From an uncultured Collinsella sp. (GTDB lineage Bacteria > Actinomycetota > Coriobacteriia > Coriobacteriales > Coriobacteriaceae), in contig CAAFOA010000177.1 in assembly GCA_900764415.1 (NCBI GenBank), positions 1-11,273 on the forward strand: a stretch of DNA of 11,273 nt, in the 5' to 3' direction. The position numbers and the translations under genes are program-made. The notes under the pieces are model-generated. The model ran no database searches, was not told the origin of the DNA, and was given only the letters and a program-made list of their open reading frames with translations. Positions 1,202-11,260 of the stretch are shown here, piece after piece; the stretch's first letter is position 1; every line of letters starts with the position of its first letter.

Positions 1202-4200
1202 CTAACGCTTGCGGCGCTTGGTCGCAGCGATGCCTGCCGCGGCAACGGTTGCACCGGAGATGCCCAGAGCAGCGACCGTCATCGCGGCGGAGTCACCCGT
1301 GCCGGCAAGCTCCGTGCCGCCGGACTTCTTGCCGTTCTTGCCCTTACCCTTGGACTTGCCCGTCGTCACCGTGGTCGTCGTCGAAGTCGAACTGCCCGCA
1401 GGGACCCCGGTGCCACCAGAGCCATCCGTACCGCCGCCCTGCTCGCCGTCGCCAGGCGTCGGGTCCGGCTCGGGCGTCGGCTCGGGATCGGGCGTCGGCT
1501 CAGGCGCCGGCTCATCGGTCACCGTAATCGTAATGTTCAGACGCTCGGAATACTCACTGTATGACATGCCAGGGCGCTGTGCCGCAATGCGCACATACAT
1601 GTTGCTATCGAGCGCAATAGGCTCGGTGTACTTTACGCGGCCTTCGTCACGGCAGGGGCAGGTGTCGTTGGTGGTGTACCAAATCGTCGTGCCATCCTCG
1701 GCCGAAAGCTCCAGCTTCGTGCCCTTGGGCACCGTAATGTAGTTCTCCTTGGGCGACCATGCACCAAACGTCGTCGCACCAATCGTCGCCACCGGTCGCG
1801 CCGGTCGCACTGCCTCGGCAGACACGCGAACGTCGACCTGCTTGGACAGCGCCGTGCCGTCCACCGCCGCCGTCAACGTCGTCAAACCGGGCAGAGCACC
1901 ATGCAGCACAAACGTCGCCGCGCCGTCCTCGCCCGTCACGGTCTGGGTGGCATCGACAGAGCAGATAGCCGAGGACTCCAGCCCAACACTAACCTTGGCG
2001 CCCGCAAACGGCTTGCCCGCCTTATCGGTCACGTGCGCCACCAGCTCAAAGTCACTGCCATCAAGCATGGTCACGGCCTGCTCCACGTTGAGCTTGAGCT
2101 TGTCGGCGCGAACGCCCACGACAAGCTCGCCACTTGCCCAGCGCGCCATGGCCGTGCCGGCGTAGTTGCGAGCACCGTCGAGCTCAAACGCCAGCGTCGA
2201 GCCCGCCCCACACGCATCGGCATAGCGAATACGCAGCACGCGCGACAGCGGCTTGCCATTGGGATCGTCCTGCTTGTCGAGCCACGTATACGTCACGTCG
2301 CCCAAGCCCTGCGCGCACAATGCGACCAGGGCATCGTCGCTCGCATCCATATACTGCGCAAACTCAACCTCGATGCAATCGGTATAGGCATGGGCCGAAA
2401 CCACCTCGGGTGCCGCCGTCGACATCAAGCCAATGTTCACCTCAGTCTGAATCGGCGGCACGCGCAGCCAAGCCGAACGCGCCTCCTCATACCCGTCCTT
2501 GGTCACGCGCACCTGATACCAGCCGGTCGGCGTATTCCAGTTGTATGCACCGTCCGCACCCGTTGCAAGCGGATTGTCCTGCTCATACTCCTCGGCATCC
2601 CAACGCACGGCATTGGTACCGGCCGCATCGTCGGCGCTCCACAGCTCAACCGTCGCGCCTTCAACCGTATTGGACAGCAGCCCCTCGTACACCACGCCCG
2701 CAGGATCGGGTGCAGCCTTGGCAGCCACATTGCGATAACGCGCCTCGAAGATCGACTGCATCTTCTCGTCCGAGATCAAGCCGTCCTTGTTGGCCTTGTA
2801 GACCTCGGCATCGGTCAGCTCGCCCCAGTTGACCGTAATACGATTCTGGCACGCGCGCTCCACCTGCTCACAGGCAACATCGTAGGCGCATTCGGCATTG
2901 GTCAGCTTAATCGCGCGCTCCGAACCTACGCTGGTCGAAGCCGCGTCATAGGCAGCGCCCACCACGGTACCCGCCGAACCGGCCGTCAGCACGCCGGCGA
3001 TTGTCATAATGGAGCCCACCGCCACATCGGTGCTATCGTGGCAGAGCTGGCGATACAGCAAATCCTCAAACGCACGCGCCTTCTCCATGGCGTCACGCAG
3101 CGCGTAAATGCACTTCCAGTCGTCCTCGGTCTTCTCGGGCTTGGCAAGCAAGCGCGTATGCTGAAGCTCATAGCCCTCGCGCTCGCCCTTCACCTTCTGC
3201 ATGCGGACGTTCACGTTCTCCCAGTTCTTGCTGGCATCGTTCACGCCGTAAATGCCGGTAAAGATGCCGATGCCCTGGGTCGCCGCGGGAAACGCCTGGC
3301 CGGCCGCCTTCCACGCATCGGCCTTAAAGACCTGTCCGAACATCTCGCACTCGATCTTATAGCTCTTGAGCGAACGGATCGTGCGGATGAGCTTCATATG
3401 GGCGCTCACGTCGCCGTTGCGCTTCCAGGCCATGAGCCATCCGCGCACCTTGGAGTTGTTGAGGCTATGGACCACATTCCAGTTGTCGTACAGGTTGTCC
3501 AGAATGTCGCACTGCATGGCGATCGAGTTAAACAGAAGCGCCTGGTTCTTGTTGTTATTGGAGTTCTCGATAAACTCCGACTCGATATAGGCCGTCTGCT
3601 CGCCATCGGGCGCGGCGACCTTAAAGCCCTTGACGGTATCGTCGTCAGCCGCCTTGTAGCTCAGTGAGCTGCCGAGCGCCTGGCCCAAATCGTTAAACCC
3701 GCTCGTCGACTGGCCGTTGTACTCGCTGGCCTTAATGCCCGCACACTTGTTAAGTGCCGCAGCGGTTGCGTCATTCCAGCTTCCATATTGGTTGAGCTGG
3801 CCGATACCCATCGACTGGCCCACCAGATCCTCGGCCTGCTGGGCAATAAACTCCGCTCGCGATGCATGGTCGACAAGTTCCTTGATGGCCGCCGCATCCG
3901 CAGCGTTCGCGCCCTGGGCCGCCGCGAGTTCCTGATACCAATCCTCGCTGGTGCCATAAGCATCTTCAAAGATCATCTTGTCCACATTGACGCCATAGCT
4001 GTCGCCCTGCTGGGTCAGCAGCGCCGCCGACCCGCCGACCGCGGCCTTGAGCTCAGCCGCAAACTGCGCGGCCTCGTCGTTGCCAGCATCATCGCCCTCG
4101 CCGTCGCTGGCGGCAGGGGCGCGACGAGCCTTACGGGCAGCTCCACCTTGGGCTTCGTCCTCTTTACCGTCCTTATCCTCCTCGGCAAATGCATCGGCGA

Positions 4201-7200
4201 CCATCTGGTCAATCGCGTCGTTAAAGGCCTCATCGACATCATTAAACGAGTTATCCATCATATACTCGTGCCACTGCTGCACGGCATTCGAGAACTCCTG
4301 CTGGCGCTCCTCGGCCGCGGCGGAATGCTTTTTGGCCGAAGCGTTGGCGTCAAAACTCAGCATGGTCATAAGCTGAGCATTGGAGATGCGGTAGGTCTGC
4401 GGCATAAAGATCTGCTCAAAGTTGCCGCAGTTCACATAGGTCGAGTCATTCTCCTTGTTAAACTCGTCGAGCAGCTTAAGGTAACCCTCGTCCACATACT
4501 CCGCCACATAGCGCACACGGGTGCCCTCGCGCGACTTTTGAGTCAGAGGAATCGTCACCGTCTTGCCATCCACGCAGTCCACGTACAGGTCGAGCGTGTC
4601 GGCGGCCTCTTCGTTTCCCACCTCGAGCGTGATGTCAAAGGTCCAGTAGGCGTTCTTCTTTTGTGGCAGATGATGGAAGGTCCACAGGCTCTTGCCGGTA
4701 TCCTTGCCGTCCTTGACCAAGTTTTGCGTACCGCCACGATACGTCACATCAAAGTTCCAGACCGAAGCACCCGGAACATAGCGCACATAATTGCGAGCCG
4801 TTACCTCGGCAGCAGCGGCGGCGACATCGGTCGAGCCCACGCGCGCCTCGAGCGTCACACGCTCGGCGGCAAGCGTATCCTGCGGCAGTTCGTATTCAAT
4901 CTTGGCACGGCCGAGTTTATTGGTCTTGCCGGTGTACTTTGCAGCCGACGAGCCCGTCCCCACGGTGAGCTGCACGCTCTTGCCCGGCGCTGCATAAACG
5001 TAGGCCACATTGCCCAGCAGGCTGTGAACGTCGGTATTGTCGACCTCGATGCGCGATCCGCTAACCTCGAGTGTGGTGCTTCCCAGCGGCACTGTCACCT
5101 CGCCCAGCGTAATGAGCGGCGAGACGGCATAGATGCCCGCGGCCTTAGGCTTAAAGCGCACAAACACATCGGCGCCCATGCCCCTCCTCATATCGAGAAC
5201 GAGGTTGTCGCCCTCCCAAGTTGTGCCAGCCCACATGGCATCGGAGCTGGCGCCGGCTTCGCGAGCGCCTGCGGACACATCCTCGACGGCATCCTTGGCA
5301 AGCGGAATCTCAATCTTGGCAGCCTGGCTGTCCTTGAGCTCGTAATGAATGCGCAGCTCGGTCTCCGCGCCAACGACCGCGGACGAATCAGCGATAACCG
5401 AGCCCGCCGTCAGCCCGCGCTCGGCACGATACGTCTCCACGTCAAACGTGGGGACGTCGAGCGTCACGTCGAGCTGTTTGCCGTCCTCAATCTTCACCTG
5501 CTTTTGCGCGATATGCTTACCCACGGTCAGCCCTAGGCGGCTAAACGTGGAATAGCTCGTCGCTTGGATGTCGTAGCTCGTCTTGTTAAAGGCGACGATG
5601 GTGTACGAACCGGCCTTAAGGCGCGGCGTCTCGGCCTTCATGATAGGCGTGGTGCCATCGTCTTCGTAACCCATCAAATAGGTGACGCCGTCGGCGACTA
5701 GCTTGCCGTCGGACGTACGGAACACCAGCACGCGGTTGGCGCCCTGGTAGTCGCCCTTGGTCGTGACCGTCGCCGTGCCCCAGGGCTTCAAGTCGATATC
5801 GACCTTGCCGGCCGAAGGCTTCACCGTCGCCGTCGCCCCACCCAGCTTGAGGCTGTCTTTGGGCTCGAGCGTTATCTCCAGATCCTGGTCTGCATCGGCA
5901 ATGGCCTGCGACACCACGAGCGCTGTGCCCTGGATACGGAAGTCGTTTTCTTTGTCACCCTTGGCAGGCTTAAGCATCTTGCCACCGCTCTTCACCGTCA
6001 GATTGATGTTATCGAGACTATCGAGCTCAATGCGTTCGGTCTTATCCTGGCCCACAATCGGTTCAAGATAGCCCACGTTGAGCTCAATCGCGCGCGAGGC
6101 CGGAATCTTGGTAAAGTCCTCCGCCTTAATCTCTCCGATATTCCATGTGCCCGTCATCTGGTCACCCGGGCGCGCCAGCACCGTGTCATAGTAACCGCTG
6201 AGCGAAATGCGCAGGGTGGCTGCTGTCTTGGAGAGAGCGTCCGCTGTAAAGCTGCCGTCATCGCCAACCGCCAGCGGCGTGGACTGCCCCGCCTGCGCGA
6301 GTGTAGCCGTCGCGCTCTGGGGAAGTTTGCCCGTCACCTGGGCCGCCTCGCCCATCCACTCAAACGTGTAGGCAGGCTTCGAGGAATCGACGGAGTCCTT
6401 GCGATCGGCCACGGCATCGGCAAGCTTTTTGACCATCGAGGGGTTGCCAGCCGAATCGGTCGCATAGGCATAGATGGTCTGGCCTTCACCAAAGGGAATC
6501 GCATACGTTACGCCATCGATTGTCACGCGCTCATTATAGTCGCCCGGATAGCCCGCCTCACCAAACTGAAGATCGGGGTTCATCACGCGCAGGGCAACGG
6601 CATTATGGTTCGTCTCGTTTCCGTATCTCGTGTTCTCAAAAGCTCCCCACTCTATCATTTCCACGCTTTTGGGTAGCACAATCTCTTTGCCGGCAATCGC
6701 AGGATCAAGAGAGGCGAACGCGAGCGCCCCGATAGATTTGACACCATCGCCGATCGTCACCGACGACACATGCGAGCACCCGTCAAAGGCATAGCGCTCA
6801 ATCCGCTCCACCGTGCCCGGCACGTTGATCTGCGTAAAGGTGAGTACCGTTGTGTCCGAGACATAGAACTGCGGCACGCCGCAATTGGCGAAGGCACGAT
6901 AGTCGATAGTCTTAACCGAAGGCGGCAGCGTTGCCACCACATTGTCGTCAAGTTGTTCGCAGCCCTCAAAGGCCTGCTCGGGAATCGTGGTAAAGGCCGC
7001 GTTGTTGGGCCAGGTCACCGTCTGAAGTGTCTTGCTTCCGGTAAACGCATTCCAGCTCAGCTCCTCAACCGAATCGGGCAGTGCGATTTCCTTGATGCTG
7101 CTGCCGCCCAAACCGCCCACAGAGCGGATATGCGAATCGGGGGCAAACGTAATTGATGTGAGCGCAACGTTTCCCATGCCCTTAAGACTCACGACATTTT

Positions 7201-7822
7201 TGCCGTCGATGGTCGAGGGCACCTCCAACGCGGTAATGCCTGCGTCGCCATACTCGATAGAAATTTCGTTGGTGAGGCTATCAATCGAGAAGTAGTACTG
7301 CGCGGGAGTCTGCTCGCCGGCCACGTAGCCATCATCGTATTCGCCCTTTACGCCCGTGGCGCCCTTCGAGGTTGCCCAGAGTTCAAGTTCCTCGTTCCAG
7401 GTCGCCTCGGTGCCGGAAGCCTCCTCTTGTTTTTGCTGCTCGGCGAGCTCCTTGCCCTCGACAAGATCGGTGGCAAGCGTACCCGCAGGTGTGCTCTCGG
7501 TCTGTCCGGCGCCCGTCAGGCCCGCCGCCGATGCAATCTCGGAGGCCGGGGGCGTAGGGGTGTCACCGGCCTCGAGCGCTGCGGGGTCGGCAGCGCCGGC
7601 ATCGGGCGCGGGGTCGGCGGAAGCAGAGTCTGACGTTTGGGCGTCAGCCGAATCGGCGGAAGCGGCGTCGTCCGCTTGGCCGTTATCCGTCTGCACAAAA
7701 GTGCTATCGGTGTTGAGGGCCTCGGCAAACGCGCCCGCGGGAAACGAACCTGTCACCATCGCGAGGGTCACCGTGGCAACCGTCAGCCGGCGGCAAAGCG
7801 CTCGAGCAGTAGTCCACCTCAT
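1202..7822 (-). CDS. Giant LAxTG-anchored surface protein with leucine-rich repeats and Ig-like domains (2206 aa)
   Basis: A secreted, probably sortase-anchored mosaic protein; its ligand or substrate is unknown. From the N-terminus: signal peptide 1-33 (AGAFA|EA cleavage); acidic Ala/Asp/Ser-rich linker ~36-115; BspA/LRR_5-like leucine-rich repeats ~185-400 with recurring LP.SV..I...AF..C units; beta-rich regions ~480-1030, one (~680-790) resembling carboxypeptidase-regulatory folds; an unrecognised helical region ~1110-1700 with an acidic/basic low-complexity insert (1210-1250) and two Gly/Ala-rich hydrophobic stretches (1508-1527, 1598-1628); carboxypeptidase-regulatory-like domain ~1708-1798; Big_1-like Ig domain ~1905-2000; chitobiase-C-terminal-like domain ~2008-2101 with TCPC at 2054-2057; Pro-Glu/Asp-Pro-Thr stalk 2104-2123; Gly/Ser/Lys linker; then LAGTG (2172-2176), a hydrophobic segment and a KRRKR tail. 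The ATG is supported by AAAGGA at 7829-7834, six bases upstream. No frameshift is seen. LAxTG is a known substrate motif of actinobacterial class E sortases. An adhesin or glycan-binding role is plausible, and no catalytic domain was recognised. Confidence 0.93.
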   Translation of the reverse strand: MRWTTARALCRRLTVATVTLAMVTGSFPAGAFAEALNTDSTFVQTDNGQADDAASADSADAQTSDSASADPAPDAGAADPAALEAGDTPTPPASEIASAAGLTGAGQTESTPAGTLATDLVEGKELAEQQKQEEASGTEATWNEELELWATSKGATGVKGEYDDGYVAGEQTPAQYYFSIDSLTNEISIEYGDAGITALEVPSTIDGKNVVSLKGMGNVALTSITFAPDSHIRSVGGLGGSSIKEIALPDSVEELSWNAFTGSKTLQTVTWPNNAAFTTIPEQAFEGCEQLDDNVVATLPPSVKTIDYRAFANCGVPQFYVSDTTVLTFTQINVPGTVERIERYAFDGCSHVSSVTIGDGVKSIGALAFASLDPAIAGKEIVLPKSVEMIEWGAFENTRYGNETNHNAVALRVMNPDLQFGEAGYPGDYNERVTIDGVTYAIPFGEGQTIYAYATDSAGNPSMVKKLADAVADRKDSVDSSKPAYTFEWMGEAAQVTGKLPQSATATLAQAGQSTPLAVGDDGSFTADALSKTAATLRISLSGYYDTVLARPGDQMTGTWNIGEIKAEDFTKIPASRAIELNVGYLEPIVGQDKTERIELDSLDNINLTVKSGGKMLKPAKGDKENDFRIQGTALVVSQAIADADQDLEITLEPKDSLKLGGATATVKPSAGKVDIDLKPWGTATVTTKGDYQGANRVLVFRTSDGKLVADGVTYLMGYEDDGTTPIMKAETPRLKAGSYTIVAFNKTSYDIQATSYSTFSRLGLTVGKHIAQKQVKIEDGKQLDVTLDVPTFDVETYRAERGLTAGSVIADSSAVVGAETELRIHYELKDSQAAKIEIPLAKDAVEDVSAGAREAGASSDAMWAGTTWEGDNLVLDMRRGMGADVFVRFKPKAAGIYAVSPLITLGEVTVPLGSTTLEVSGSRIEVDNTDVHSLLGNVAYVYAAPGKSVQLTVGTGSSAAKYTGKTNKLGRAKIEYELPQDTLAAERVTLEARVGSTDVAAAAAEVTARNYVRYVPGASVWNFDVTYRGGTQNLVKDGKDTGKSLWTFHHLPQKKNAYWTFDITLEVGNEEAADTLDLYVDCVDGKTVTIPLTQKSREGTRVRYVAEYVDEGYLKLLDEFNKENDSTYVNCGNFEQIFMPQTYRISNAQLMTMLSFDANASAKKHSAAAEERQQEFSNAVQQWHEYMMDNSFNDVDEAFNDAIDQMVADAFAEEDKDGKEDEAQGGAARKARRAPAASDGEGDDAGNDEAAQFAAELKAAVGGSAALLTQQGDSYGVNVDKMIFEDAYGTSEDWYQELAAAQGANAADAAAIKELVDHASRAEFIAQQAEDLVGQSMGIGQLNQYGSWNDATAAALNKCAGIKASEYNGQSTSGFNDLGQALGSSLSYKAADDDTVKGFKVAAPDGEQTAYIESEFIENSNNNKNQALLFNSIAMQCDILDNLYDNWNVVHSLNNSKVRGWLMAWKRNGDVSAHMKLIRTIRSLKSYKIECEMFGQVFKADAWKAAGQAFPAATQGIGIFTGIYGVNDASKNWENVNVRMQKVKGEREGYELQHTRLLAKPEKTEDDWKCIYALRDAMEKARAFEDLLYRQLCHDSTDVAVGSIMTIAGVLTAGSAGTVVGAAYDAASTSVGSERAIKLTNAECAYDVACEQVERACQNRITVNWGELTDAEVYKANKDGLISDEKMQSIFEARYRNVAAKAAPDPAGVVYEGLLSNTVEGATVELWSADDAAGTNAVRWDAEEYEQDNPLATGADGAYNWNTPTGWYQVRVTKDGYEEARSAWLRVPPIQTEVNIGLMSTAAPEVVSAHAYTDCIEVEFAQYMDASDDALVALCAQGLGDVTYTWLDKQDDPNGKPLSRVLRIRYADACGAGSTLAFELDGARNYAGTAMARWASGELVVGVRADKLKLNVEQAVTMLDGSDFELVAHVTDKAGKPFAGAKVSVGLESSAICSVDATQTVTGEDGAATFVLHGALPGLTTLTAAVDGTALSKQVDVRVSAEAVRPARPVATIGATTFGAWSPKENYITVPKGTKLELSAEDGTTIWYTTNDTCPCRDEGRVKYTEPIALDSNMYVRIAAQRPGMSYSEYSERLNITITVTDEPAPEPTPDPEPTPEPDPTPGDGEQGGGTDGSGGTGVPAGSSTSTTTTVTTGKSKGKGKNGKKSGGTELAGTGDSAAMTVAALGISGATVAAAGIAATKRRKR

Positions 7823-7882
7823 GGTCGTTCCTTTCTTGCAAACCTAAAGTCATCCAGCGTAATCGTTGTCCAAAAACAAAGC

Positions 7883-7924
7883 GAACGGTAGGTTCATATA
7901 TACGAACCTACCGTTCTACCTGCG
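7883..7924 (-). promoter_or_regulatory. Palindromic element upstream of the giant surface gene (copy A)
   Basis: A perfect 13-bp inverted repeat, GAACGGTAGGTTC (7883-7895) and GAACCTACCGTTC (7904-7916), surrounds an 8-base AT-rich spacer, with the directional flank CGCAGGTAGA (- strand, 7924-7915) on the gene-distal side. It sits 61 bp upstream of the ATG at 7822. The same architecture occurs at 10059-10097 before the next surface gene. On the - strand TATATA (7902-7897) in the spacer could be a -10 box with TTGCGC (7927-7922) as a weak -35, but the spacing is 18-19. GCTTTGTTTTTGG follows the hairpin in the direction of transcription, so an attenuator or a terminator of the upstream gene is also possible. 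Confidence 0.7.
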
Positions 7925-7926
7925 CA

Positions 7927-7963
7927 AACCACCACAAAGGGGACAGGCACCTTTGTGGTGGTT
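7927..7963 (+). repeat. 35-bp palindromic intergenic repeat, copy 2 (perfect)
   Basis: The core 7928-7962 has arms ACCACCACAAAGG (7928-7940) and CCTTTGTGGTGGT (7950-7962) with the loop GGACAGGCA; one more A:T pair extends it to 7927/7963. It is the exact reverse complement of copy 3 (9989-10023). It starts 35 bp after the stop of the 654-aa surface gene and abuts the copy A palindrome. No U-tract follows on either strand, so it is not a typical terminator. Downstream of both copies 1 and 2, GCCTGGTCG follows within 20 bp, which may be part of a longer unit. Confidence 0.9.
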
Positions 7964-7997
7964 CTGGACATGCCTGGTCGTGGCGGAACACCAAAAC

Positions 7998-9962
7998 CTA
8001 ATGCTTGCGGCGCTTGGTCGCGGCGAGGCCGGCGGCGGCTACGGTTGCGCCGGCGATGCCTAGGGCGGCGACTGTCATCGCGGTGGTATCTCCCGTGGTA
8101 GCCAGGACAGCGTCGCTCTTCTTGGCCTGCGTGGTTTTCTCAACCGTCTTGCTCACCGTGGCGGTCGTAGCCGGCTTGGCCGCGAGCTTGGTCTCGGGCT
8201 TAACCTCAGGCTGCGGCGTCGGCTTGGGATCCGGCGTAGGCTGCGGATCGGGAGTCGGCGTGGCTTCAGGCGTAAAGGTCAGATCGGTGTTGAGCCACAG
8301 GGTGTAGATCCAGCCGCTGTCCTCATCGGATACGCTATCCGCGACCTGGTAGCCGCACTCCTGGCCGTTGATCACCAGCTTGGTGTCGGGCGTAAAGTAG
8401 AAGCCGCGCGCGGACTTGAGGTAGATACCGTAGCGATAGGTCACGCCAGGCTTAAAGGCGTCGATGTGGTTCGTAATGTTCTGATCCCAGAAATCCACGG
8501 AGTTCACTTCGCTGCCGTCGCTACCCGTCCAGAACTCACACTGAGGAAGGGAGTTGGAGCCCGTCGGAACATTCGCCGTAAAGACCGGCCTATCGCCCGC
8601 CTTGAAGGCGGTCGTGGCGCCGTTGATCTCGATAACGTCGATGGCACGCCATTCGTCGATTGGCTGTTCGCACAGCATATTGCCAGCGATTGGCGCAAAG
8701 ACGCCGTTGTCGGTCTTGATGTGGTGCACCCAACGACCGTTGACGTTCATATTGCAGTCATCGGCCACGGTATTGTCGCCCTTGAGCCTCAGCTCAACGG
8801 AGTACATGTAGAACTTACCATCTTCGAAGTGTTCAATCCTCCTCGCGCCCGTCGGATACTTGGCAGGGTCGGAATACCAGAAGGCAACGGGCGTGAGCCC
8901 CGTAGGGTCGCTGGCATCCATCTCTTCCCAGCACTCGTAGGCGATCTCGTACTTGTCGGCATCGGCAGCGGGGATCGTCGCGGTCGCGCGTGGCGCCTCG
9001 CCGGGCGCGTAGTCGGTCTTCATGTCGTTGACGTCCAGGTTATGGAGGGCTTCGTTTTCTGACGCAACGAGCGTAATTTCGCTATTGATGACGTAGCGGA
9101 GGTAATAATCGTACCTGGTTTCGTTGAGGATAGTCGAGCTGCCTTCATAGTCAGTTCCGGTATACTCCAGTGCCGTGCCAATATAGAGAGTCTCATTGCG
9201 CGTGAGTCGATATGAGCCGCCTGCCGCGCCACCCGTAAAGGTCAGCGTCAGCCTCATGTGATTGCCAACGGGTTCGAAGCGAGCCGTCACGTCGGACATG
9301 AACGCATCCTGAACTTCGACCAGAGTGCCCGAAGCGGCATCGGCCCTGTAGTACTTAACCTCGACAACTTCGCTCGCAAGCGTTTCTGGAATGCCACCCT
9401 CTACATCGAGAAAATCGTGGGTATACGGCTGGCCCTTTTTGAGTGTGACCTTGCTCGGAAGCGCGCAGTCCGTATAGTGGGGGACCACGGTCGTGTTGAC
9501 CCTAACGTCGCTGCCGCCAACAACATCGGTCACACCGCAGGGCATGATGGCGTTGCTCGCCGGCATGGCGGCGTTGTCGTCGCCAGAAGCGTTTTGCCCA
9601 GCGAGCGCAGCACCGCTAGACTCATTGACGGCATCGGCTGGGATTGTCTGCTGAGGCTCAACGGTGGCTTGCGCCGCCGGAGCAGCATCGGTTGCAGGCG
9701 CGGTCGAAGCAGCTGGTGCGGTCGTTGCAGCCGCATCCTCCGCAACCGTCGGCGTCACCGGAGCCGCGGCAACCTCATCCGTCCCAGCGGCGGGATCGGC
9801 GCATTCCGGCGCCAGCGCCACGCTCCGCAGCAGCAACTGACCGACCATAAGCGCACACGCGCCGGCGCAAGCTATTTTGGCACCCACACAACGCCAGGTA
9901 CCGTGAACCAGCGAGCAGGTGGACTCACGTTGAGCTTGCTTGTCAAAGTGGCTTACGTTCAT
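7998..9962 (-). CDS. LAxTG-anchored surface protein with tandem Ig-like domains (654 aa)
   Basis: A probably exported, wall-anchored protein of unknown ligand. A hydrophobic segment at ~28-50 behind a 27-residue N-region forms a long signal peptide. An Ala/Thr/Pro-rich stalk (~55-110) follows, then a beta-rich region (~165-300). Two related units of about 115-125 residues come next (~308-420 and ~440-565), both with DV..., G..P..TA.(I/V)P, an aromatic FW pair, (H/D).F..G..Y.Y...L and a late NG pair. These resemble beta-sandwich repeats common in Coriobacteriia and Clostridia surface proteins. The C-terminus has a Pro/Thr stalk (~565-590), LATTG (620-624), a hydrophobic segment and a KRRKH tail. 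The ATG at 9962 is chosen because AAGGAGG lies five bases upstream; an upstream in-frame start at 10046 would translate through a repeat. The sorting-signal region is ~80% identical at DNA level to that of the downstream giant gene, by eye. Cysteines (C142, C166, C344, C403, C431, C475, C536) could form disulfides. Confidence 0.92.
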   Translation of the reverse strand: MNVSHFDKQAQRESTCSLVHGTWRCVGAKIACAGACALMVGQLLLRSVALAPECADPAAGTDEVAAAPVTPTVAEDAAATTAPAASTAPATDAAPAAQATVEPQQTIPADAVNESSGAALAGQNASGDDNAAMPASNAIMPCGVTDVVGGSDVRVNTTVVPHYTDCALPSKVTLKKGQPYTHDFLDVEGGIPETLASEVVEVKYYRADAASGTLVEVQDAFMSDVTARFEPVGNHMRLTLTFTGGAAGGSYRLTRNETLYIGTALEYTGTDYEGSSTILNETRYDYYLRYVINSEITLVASENEALHNLDVNDMKTDYAPGEAPRATATIPAADADKYEIAYECWEEMDASDPTGLTPVAFWYSDPAKYPTGARRIEHFEDGKFYMYSVELRLKGDNTVADDCNMNVNGRWVHHIKTDNGVFAPIAGNMLCEQPIDEWRAIDVIEINGATTAFKAGDRPVFTANVPTGSNSLPQCEFWTGSDGSEVNSVDFWDQNITNHIDAFKPGVTYRYGIYLKSARGFYFTPDTKLVINGQECGYQVADSVSDEDSGWIYTLWLNTDLTFTPEATPTPDPQPTPDPKPTPQPEVKPETKLAAKPATTATVSKTVEKTTQAKKSDAVLATTGDTTAMTVAALGIAGATVAAAGLAATKRRKH

Positions 9963-9967
9963 AACGG

Positions 9968-9974
9968 CCTCCTT
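9968..9974 (-). promoter_or_regulatory. Shine-Dalgarno AAGGAGG that fixes the start at 9962
   Basis: On the - strand, AAGGAGG (9974-9968) is followed by CCGTT and ATG at 9962-9960. It is the strongest ribosome-binding site in the window, and it rules out the upstream in-frame GTG at 10046, whose first 28 codons would run through the palindromic repeat (PPQRGQAPLWW). Confidence 0.85.
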
Positions 9975-9988
9975 GGTCGTAGGGACAT

Positions 9989-10023
9989 ACCACCACAAAG
10001 GTGCCTGTCCCCTTTGTGGTGGT
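9989..10023 (-). repeat. 35-bp palindromic intergenic repeat, copy 3 (perfect, in the leader)
   Basis: Arms ACCACCACAAAGG (9989-10001) and CCTTTGTGGTGGT (10011-10023) with the loop TGCCTGTCC are an exact reverse complement of copy 2. It ends 14 bp before the AAGGAGG ribosome-binding site of the 654-aa surface gene. It would be in that gene's 5' leader if transcription starts at or before the palindrome at 10059-10097. Its position between regulatory element and ribosome-binding site suggests an insertion into the leader; this is inference. Confidence 0.9.
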
Positions 10024-10058
10024 CCTGTACCACCAAGATGTGCCAAATGACTCCGTAT

Positions 10059-10097
10059 GCCTAGGTTCGTAGATGTGAACCTAGGCCTCTACCTGCG
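10059..10097 (-). promoter_or_regulatory. Palindromic element upstream of the 654-aa surface gene (copy B)
   Basis: GCCTAGGTTC (10059-10068) and GAACCTAGGC (10077-10086) form a perfect 10-bp inverted repeat with an 8-base spacer. The flank CGCAGGTAGA (- strand, 10097-10088) lies on the gene-distal side. From GAACC to the end of the flank, 17 of 21 positions match copy A, and the mismatches fall in the outer stem where pairing is preserved. No U-tract follows on either strand, so this is not a terminator. An operator, a cruciform or an RNA leader hairpin remain possible. Confidence 0.7.
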
Positions 10098-10145
10098 GTT
10101 TAATTCAATATGATTTCGCCATCGCCACACTCGTCCCGGGAACGC

Positions 10146-10151
10146 TACAAT
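10146..10151 (+). promoter_or_regulatory. Putative -10 box (TACAAT) for the membrane-protein gene
   Basis: TACAAT differs from the consensus TATAAT at one base and lies 26 bp before the AAAGGA ribosome-binding site of the divergent membrane-protein gene. No convincing -35 hexamer is visible 16-18 bp upstream (the region is CGCCAC-like), so this is tentative. Confidence 0.4.
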
Positions 10152-10188: not shown

Positions 10189-11260
10189 TTGAACCTGAGC
10201 AAGCCTAAAATCAACGCGCTTCTGGCACTCGCGCTCTTCACCTTCGCCTTCCTTGCCGCCGAGTTTCGCTTCGACGTCAACGTCGGACTGCTCGCCGGTG
10301 CCGAGCGCGTTGTGCTCGCACAGGGCTTTATCCTTGGCGCCAGCGTGATCGGCTTTATCGGATACGCTCCGTTGCTTGAGCACGCGCAGCACAAAGGCCA
10401 GTCTCAGACAGTTGTCGGCGCCGCCGTCCCCATCGCCATCTTGGGGTTGACCCAGATTCAGTCCCCCACGGACCTGCTTGCGCTCGAGATTTTGGGCTGC
10501 ATGGCATTCTTTGGACTCGGCCTGCTGGGCGCCGCTGCGCACCATGCCTTTTCGTTAGCATTCCAGGATGACCCCAAACTCGCCACCGGCGCGGGAGCAG
10601 CCTATGCCGCGGGCATCTTGATGCAGTTCGCCATCAACCTGCTCAATTGCGGCGGCATCGCAGAGCTCATCGTCCTTGGCATAGCGACGATCGTCATCTC
10701 CACCCTCAGCGTCGTTTCCCAAAAGGCTGCCGAGAGCTCAAACCCCGCCATCAATCCCTTTGTTGAGCCATCGCACGCCCTCGCCAAGCAGGCATGTTGG
10801 AGCATCGTGCTCGTCATGATTCTCGCCTGCCTGTTCTCTACTCTCGATAACGTGGTCACGTTCTCCAACGCCCACGGCACCATCGCCGTGCAGACCTGGC
10901 CGCGCCTCTTTTTGGCAGCGAGCGGCCTAGCCGCCGGCATCGTCTTTGATCTCGCCGAGCGTCGCTACATGGGACTTGTCATGCTCGGCATCGCCGTGCT
11001 CTCGACCATTTCCATCCTGGCCGTGGAGGCCGGCGCTGATCCCAACCTGGGCCTTGTCGTCTTTTACCTGAGCTCGGGCTTTTTTGTCACGTTCTTTACC
11101 GCCACCTTTACACAGCTGGCACCGCGCATGCATGCGCCCGCCCTTTGGGCCGGCATGGGACGCGCCGCCAACAATGTGTGTGCGTTCACTACATCGGGCA
11201 TCTCGCTTGCCCTCGTGACCTCGGGCAACGTTACCCTCATCATGATCGGCGCGCTCGTTT
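10189..11260 (+). CDS. MFS-like polytopic membrane protein, 3'-truncated by adapter
   Basis: 357 codons are visible from a TTG start. The protein is almost entirely hydrophobic, with about 11-12 membrane segments (roughly 9-25, 39-60, 74-88, 99-120, 134-156, 158-177, 203-220, 236-254, 261-278, 286-308, 326-343 and 348 onward). A hydrophilic central loop at ~178-202 (SQKAAESSNPAINPFVEPS) splits it into two six-helix halves, as in the major facilitator superfamily. DLAERRYMG (254-262) between segments 8 and 9 resembles the MFS interhelix loop, and APALWAGMGRAANN (316-329) precedes segment 11. The substrate is unknown. The frame ends in adapter at 11261, so the true C-terminus is missing. Many Coriobacteriia encode similar 12-helix proteins fused to a C-terminal LuxR DNA-binding domain, so this may be a membrane-bound regulator instead of a transporter; the missing end would decide. 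It is divergent from the 654-aa surface gene, with 226 bp between their starts. Confidence 0.8.

Follow-up and report, generated by a model that had tools for sequence, protein, structure and literature searches.

What are the two matching palindromes that precede neighbouring surface-protein genes in an uncultured Collinsella sp., and what reads them? The stretch analysed, hereafter the window, comprises the 11,273 nucleotides of contig CAAFOA010000177.1 (assembly GCA_900764415.1). Two genes for secreted, anchored proteins, gene A and gene B, lie on its reverse strand, each with a dyad TAGGTTC-N8-GAACCTA upstream (site A and site B, respectively). An earlier note, made from the letters of the window, had proposed that these dyads form a switch shared by a surface-protein regulon, and that base pairing in them matters. 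We report below that the dyad and its flank form a conserved element of fixed geometry, confined to this locus, and we propose, tentatively, that both sites are DNA operators read by a membrane LuxR-type regulator whose gene adjoins site B.

Two palindromes of common design

The sequence TAGGTTC-N8-GAACCTA is present in exactly two exact copies in the window (Table 1). Both have a spacer of the same length, 8 bases, both are oriented identically with respect to their gene, and on the coding strand both are preceded by CGCAGGTAGA-N4; the earlier description of twin dyads, with their spacing, orientation and flank, was thus borne out by exact matches at both sites. A chance origin of the pair is unlikely, since the window, dinucleotide-shuffled 300 times, gave two dyads with a common arm and spacer length only once, any 7-bp arm and any spacer of 0 to 20 bases being accepted. 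When the 14 fixed bases were searched with up to 3 mismatches, two matches were reached in 5 of 200 shuffles; the real copies have 0 mismatches each.

Outside the common half-sites, the next three pairs read C-G-G with C-C-G in one site and G-C-C with G-G-C in the other, and the three both-side changes to which the earlier note had drawn attention are real in the window's two copies. The spacers, said there to differ freely, are equal at 4 of 8 positions between A and B, and each is nearly constant among genomes, that of site A being identical in 5 of 5 and that of site B variable at 1 of 8 positions among 6. The two genes had also been called paralogous. This holds for the C-terminal anchor, the last 57 residues of the proteins aligning with 65% identity, and not for the rest, where no alignment was obtained. 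The anchor of gene A, read by eye, is of the LAGTG type.

Table 1. Features of the locus, in positions of the window. Dyad and flank sequences are those of the coding strand of genes A and B.
Feature	Position	Strand	Remark
Site A core dyad, TAGGTTC-GTATATAT-GAACCTA	7889..7910	-	Identical in 5 of 5 genomes with site A
Site A full dyad, 13-bp arms (7883-7895/7904-7916)	7883..7916	-	Followed by GCTTTGTTTTTG on the coding strand, terminator-like
Site A flank, CGCAGGTAGA	7915..7924	-	
TTTG block, +25 from the centre of dyad A	7871..7874	-	
Site B core dyad, TAGGTTC-ACATCTAC-GAACCTA	10062..10083	-	6 genomes, including the window
Site B full dyad, 10-bp arms (10059-10068/10077-10086)	10059..10086	-	
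Site B flank, CGCAGGTAGA	10088..10097	-	
TTTG block, +25 from the centre of dyad B	10044..10047	-	
Gene A, 2206-aa secreted protein, BspA-type leucine-rich repeats (LRR_5) and Ig-like domain	1202..7822	-	
Gene B, 654-aa secreted protein, LATTG-type (LPXTG-like) anchor	7998..9962	-	
33-bp dispersed repeat hairpin in the gene B leader	9990..10022	-	Length equals the 110-minus-77 bp gap in distance to ATG
5' part of the membrane LuxR-type regulator gene, MFS-like N-terminal part	10189..11260	+	Divergent from gene B

Conservation and geometry

The element was found at the same genes in other Collinsella, site A in 5 genomes and site B in 6 (window counted), so that the idea of a shared cis-element with conserved half-sites and flank could be kept. 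In these counts, the six rows of the site A comparison stand for 5 genomes, G019 and FAA (L007) being counted once, and L003, L005 and L006 were taken as duplicates of G001, G022 and G033, respectively. The geometry is fixed. TTTG stands at +25 from the dyad centre in 11 of the 11 copies of sites A and B, and the distance from dyad centre to ATG is 77 bp at site A (5/5 genomes) and 110 bp at site B (5 of 6 genomes, with 109 bp in G033). The 33-base repeat hairpin of the gene B leader is matched in 5 of the 6 copies, and altered in G033.

Taken from the flank through TTTTTG, the site A element varies at 0 of 54 positions among 5 genomes, whereas the leader varies at 4 of 48 positions and the aligned coding start at 38 of 261. 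Among the 6 genomes with site B, 7 of the 54 positions of the element vary, 3 of them within the first 36, and 74 of 297 vary at the gene B coding start; in one of these genomes a base of the left half-site is changed.

The element is private to one locus

The exact flanked motif was recovered in 5 genome stretches, all 5 from Collinsella. In the nearest genome, G001, the dyad searched with up to 2 mismatches gave 2 sites, both at this locus, and the reversed pattern, used as a control throughout, gave 1. Among 43 genomes of the genus, 10 dyad sites with at most 1 mismatch were found in 6 genomes (control, 6 sites); 8 of them, in 5 genomes, belong to this locus, and the other 2, with 1 mismatch, lie in G026. 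Left half plus flank, at the same tolerance in the same genomes, gave 8 sites, all at this locus and in 5 genomes (control, 7 matches). The core AGGTTC-N8-GAACCT, searched exactly in 65 genomes of the family, gave 9 sites in 7 genomes, 7 at this locus and 2 outside it (G014 and G018). Because the control gave 22 sites in 22 of the 65 genomes, the bare, unflanked dyad is not over-represented in genomes at large. With the whole element and up to 3 mismatches, 9 sites were found in 6 of the 65 family genomes, 8 of them at this locus, and the control gave 0. The ninth copy is found in G028, a genome that lacks the locus, and has 2 mismatches, both in the left arm. About 0.01 such matches are expected by chance on our own estimate, which makes this stray copy odd; we treated it as a chance match, and by eye it seems to lie before an oppositely pointing gene.

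Elsewhere in the 43 genus and 65 family genomes, no excess of sites over the reversed-pattern controls pointed to a wider surface-protein regulon, and the regulon switch suggested in the earlier note was not supported. A dispersed repeat, of the repetitive extragenic palindrome or miniature inverted-repeat transposable element type, was also rejected: G001 holds 2 sites at up to 2 mismatches, and 8 of 8 flanked matches among the 43 genomes fall at one locus. We concluded that the flanked dyad belongs to this locus and represents neither a repeat family nor a regulon spread over the genome. Such a restricted site suggests a regulator restricted in the same way.

A membrane LuxR-type regulator adjoins site B

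The regulator gene divergent from gene B was absent from the earlier note. Its copy in the window runs off the contig end, the helix-turn-helix (HTH) end being lost, and no HTH match was found in this truncated copy. Both contig ends (1-63 and 11261-11273) resemble Illumina Nextera adapters, with a P7-like start and a mosaic end, and the end genes are cut there; we take these ends for contamination of the assembly.

Orthologues at least 85% identical are present in 6 of the 43 genus genomes; the search matched 21 of the 43 overall, the further genomes having distant relatives with 32-40% identity. In G001, G004, G022 and G033, an open reading frame (ORF) of 467-468 aa comes with one or two sites. 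The ORF is shortened to 258 aa in G019, which has site A only, and to 406 aa in G007, which has no site. None of the remaining 37 of the 43 genomes carries the flanked site. In the shortened ORFs (L088 3597-4373 and L087 4435-5655), the N-terminal helices are missing.

GerE (PF00196) scored above the cut-off in 4 of 4 full-length orthologues scanned (E=1e-7). Five models were predicted for the G004 orthologue, with mean pLDDT (predicted local distance difference test) values of 55.6 to 78.9, and the best of them (78.9) has 12 long helices, then the HTH. Its top Foldseek matches are MFS transporters, and the PDB structures matched by the HTH are GerE, VraR and NarL. On these predictions, the neighbour of site B is an orthologue of proteins joining a 12-helix, MFS-like fold to a GerE/LuxR HTH, which is the architecture of LuxR regulators with 10-12 transmembrane (TM) helices. 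A promoter-like sequence, TCGCCA-18-TACAAT, lies before the regulator gene at 10122-10151 on the forward strand, and its TACAAT box is kept in D40t1 (L004) despite replaced upstream sequence.

Proposed operators of a local regulator

Regulators of the 10-12-TM LuxR class activate neighbouring genes in Eggerthella lenta, one strain of which has 83 transmembrane LuxR-type regulators (PMC9734109). No DNA operator for this family was found in the literature searched, passages of PMC9734109 included.

The reading that we favour, and hold tentatively, is that the promoters of genes A and B each contain a DNA operator, the dyad, to which the adjoining 12-TM LuxR-type regulator would bind. It sets out from the element itself, its fixed geometry, its restriction to the locus and its conservation, and from the architecture of the orthologous regulators. 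One dimeric, locus-private regulator would read both palindromes as protein-binding DNA sites, and the best candidate for this reader is the membrane-anchored protein encoded beside site B. It may respond to a membrane signal, as is supposed for DadR, CadR and HcdR of Eggerthella, and would switch both surface proteins together, presumably by activation.

Several points weigh against this. The co-occurrence of regulator and sites is suggestive but confounded, because both pass down together with the surface genes as a single unit. Beside the regulator of D40t1 and G007, the surface gene bears another dyad, GTAACACCATGTTAC, and the TAGGTTC dyad is absent, the best 22-bp match there having 5-6 mismatches; the regulator is thus not tied to the TAGGTTC motif at every neighbour. 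The assignment of the sites to this regulator may be mistaken, and a control site of its own may come with each surface cassette. No similar dyad was seen by eye upstream of paralogous regulators in 12 aligned loci (out of 14, L091 being left out and the start pattern not being found in L104), and the coding strand showed no sigma-70-type promoter for gene A or for gene B. The 15 bp from centre to centre of the half-sites exceed the classical NarL 7-2-7 or lux-box geometry. Finally, operators alone leave unexplained the symmetry of the outer pairs within each site and their difference between sites. As to the GTAACACCATGTTAC dyad, it lies near the start of another type of surface gene (L004 6440-6640, L087 5640-5760) and, at up to 1 mismatch, was found in 1 of the 43 genus genomes, G007.

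It is unlikely, in our opinion, that the bolder form of the proposal holds, namely that the dyad is the first recognisable operator of a membrane-anchored 12-TM LuxR controlling gut surface adhesins, with arms kept self-complementary for extruded or paired DNA. Should the operator reading itself be true, it would supply a compact, testable target sequence for one of the many membrane LuxR regulators carried by Coriobacteriia, suggest that this family can control surface proteins too, beyond enzymes, and give a handle on cell-surface change in Collinsella. Overall, the sequence comparisons argue well for a locus-private cis-element and offer a plausible candidate partner for it, an interesting lead that appears ordinary in kind.

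Alternative explanations

The dyads could be operators of a transcription factor encoded elsewhere, the adjoining LuxR gene being a bystander or controlling other surface genes. We regard this as possible, though less probable than a local reader. Other LuxR-type candidates exist, as 4 to 11 GerE matches were found per genome in the 8 genomes searched, and the different dyad of the regulator-adjoining gene in D40t1 and G007 makes it seem that each surface cassette brings its own site. The flanked site, however, occurs once or twice per carrying genome and at this locus only, which fits a linked regulator better.

Alternatively, the palindromes could work as RNA hairpins in the 5' leaders of the two surface genes, through stability, attenuation or a protein that binds RNA, with selection acting on their pairing. 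The outer three pairs, each altered on both sides from A to B, fit this idea, as only 1 of 500 shuffles reaches 3 such changes, and in coding-strand RNA 60 of 60 cells pair, G-U included. Two one-sided stem changes are seen in site B, an outer G-C to G-T in G022 and an inner A-T to G-T in G033; both lose the pairing in DNA and keep it as G-U in the coding-strand RNA. As RNA, site A could form 2 additional pairs within its spacer. The folding z-scores of the coding strand are -6.66 (A) and -3.28 (B), but palindromes fold by construction. At a background pairing probability of 0.26, the three extra pairs at B have a probability of 0.018 and the six at A one of 0.0003, for pairs that were chosen post hoc. 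Moreover, the three double changes count effectively as one contrast, that of A with B, and no compensated change was seen within site A (5 genomes) or within site B (6 genomes), which leaves the earlier inference that pairing matters unproven. The spacer and the asymmetric flank are conserved as well, and Rfam gave no match at E<=1 between 7700 and 10300.

The locus of D40t1 also speaks against an RNA role. There, the homology 5' of site B ends at CCGCAGGTAGA. Before it come the final part of another surface gene and a 10-bp stem with CTTTGTATTT after it; the stem stops 11 bases short of CGCAGGTAGA, which leaves little promoter room before the dyad and makes transcription through the palindrome less likely in this strain. 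If this hairpin terminates transcription, the promoter of gene B in D40t1 would lie within or after the element. We prefer a DNA site for this reason. The hairpin is our own reading, as the terminator scan reported none there, its loop exceeding the length allowed, and the 91-nt stretch that contains it folds only slightly better than its shuffles (z=-1.43). Taking both sides together, we consider the RNA hairpin rather unlikely.

Imperfect palindromes can be corrected by template switching at replication, and the symmetric outer triplets could be the product of such correction, with no selection for pairing, only the inner half-sites and flank being functional. This covers both the symmetry within the sites and the difference between them without a role for RNA or a cruciform, and it is compatible with operators; as an explanation we find it improbable.

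It appears very unlikely that site A serves to terminate transcription of gene B and owes its likeness to site B to a past duplication. On the coding strand, GCTTTGTTTT comes after its hairpin and does not change in any of the 5 genomes, but site B has no T-run after its hairpin, the gene upstream of site B is the divergent regulator in 5 of 6 copies, which leaves nothing to terminate, and both sites keep equal flank, TTTG and start-codon distance (less the 33-bp repeat). Least credible of all are site-specific recombination sites that shuffle surface-gene cassettes: the 13-bp arms and 8-bp spacer of site A recall the 13-8-13 sites loxP and FRT, the locus varies in its surface genes and the break in D40t1 falls at the flank, but the arms of site B are only 10 bp, the A and B spacers differ within a genome while each is conserved, G001 has no third site at up to 2 mismatches and thus no partner with a matching overlap, and no recombinase was evident by eye in an ORF listing of six loci, no profile search having been made.

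Neighbouring repeats

The 33-bp dispersed repeat hairpin CCACCAC...GTGGTGG, with core GGGGACAGGCACC on either strand, lies at 1053-1085, 7929-7961 and 9990-10022 of the window, and the core with TTT is present in 6 to 21 copies in each of five related genomes. A second inverted repeat, CTCAATCTGTAACACC...TGTTACAGATTGAG, is also found near these genes, at 1110-1164 in the window and at 8400-8640 in the related locus L088.

Comparison with known systems

The dyads resemble the GGGGACAGGCACC-type repeat hairpins of Collinsella in being intergenic inverted repeats in the same gaps. They differ in number, the flanked TAGGTTC dyad reaching at most 2 copies per genome, at one locus, against the 6 to 21 core copies of the repeat. 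With the lux box and the NarL 7-2-7 operators they share inverted half-sites, a fixed distance to the gene start and a conserved sequence. They depart from these in their 8-bp spacer, which sets the half-site centres 15 bp apart, in a flank that is conserved but asymmetric, and in outer arms that are symmetric within each site and unlike between sites.

The regulator predicted beside site B shares with DadR, CadR and HcdR a twelve-helix N-terminal part, a C-terminal GerE HTH, a position beside its likely targets and an origin in the bacterial class Coriobacteriia (PMC9734109). A candidate DNA site is present here, and none is described for this family in the passages searched of that study. 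The neighbours of DadR, CadR and HcdR are catabolic enzymes, whereas those found here are anchored surface proteins.

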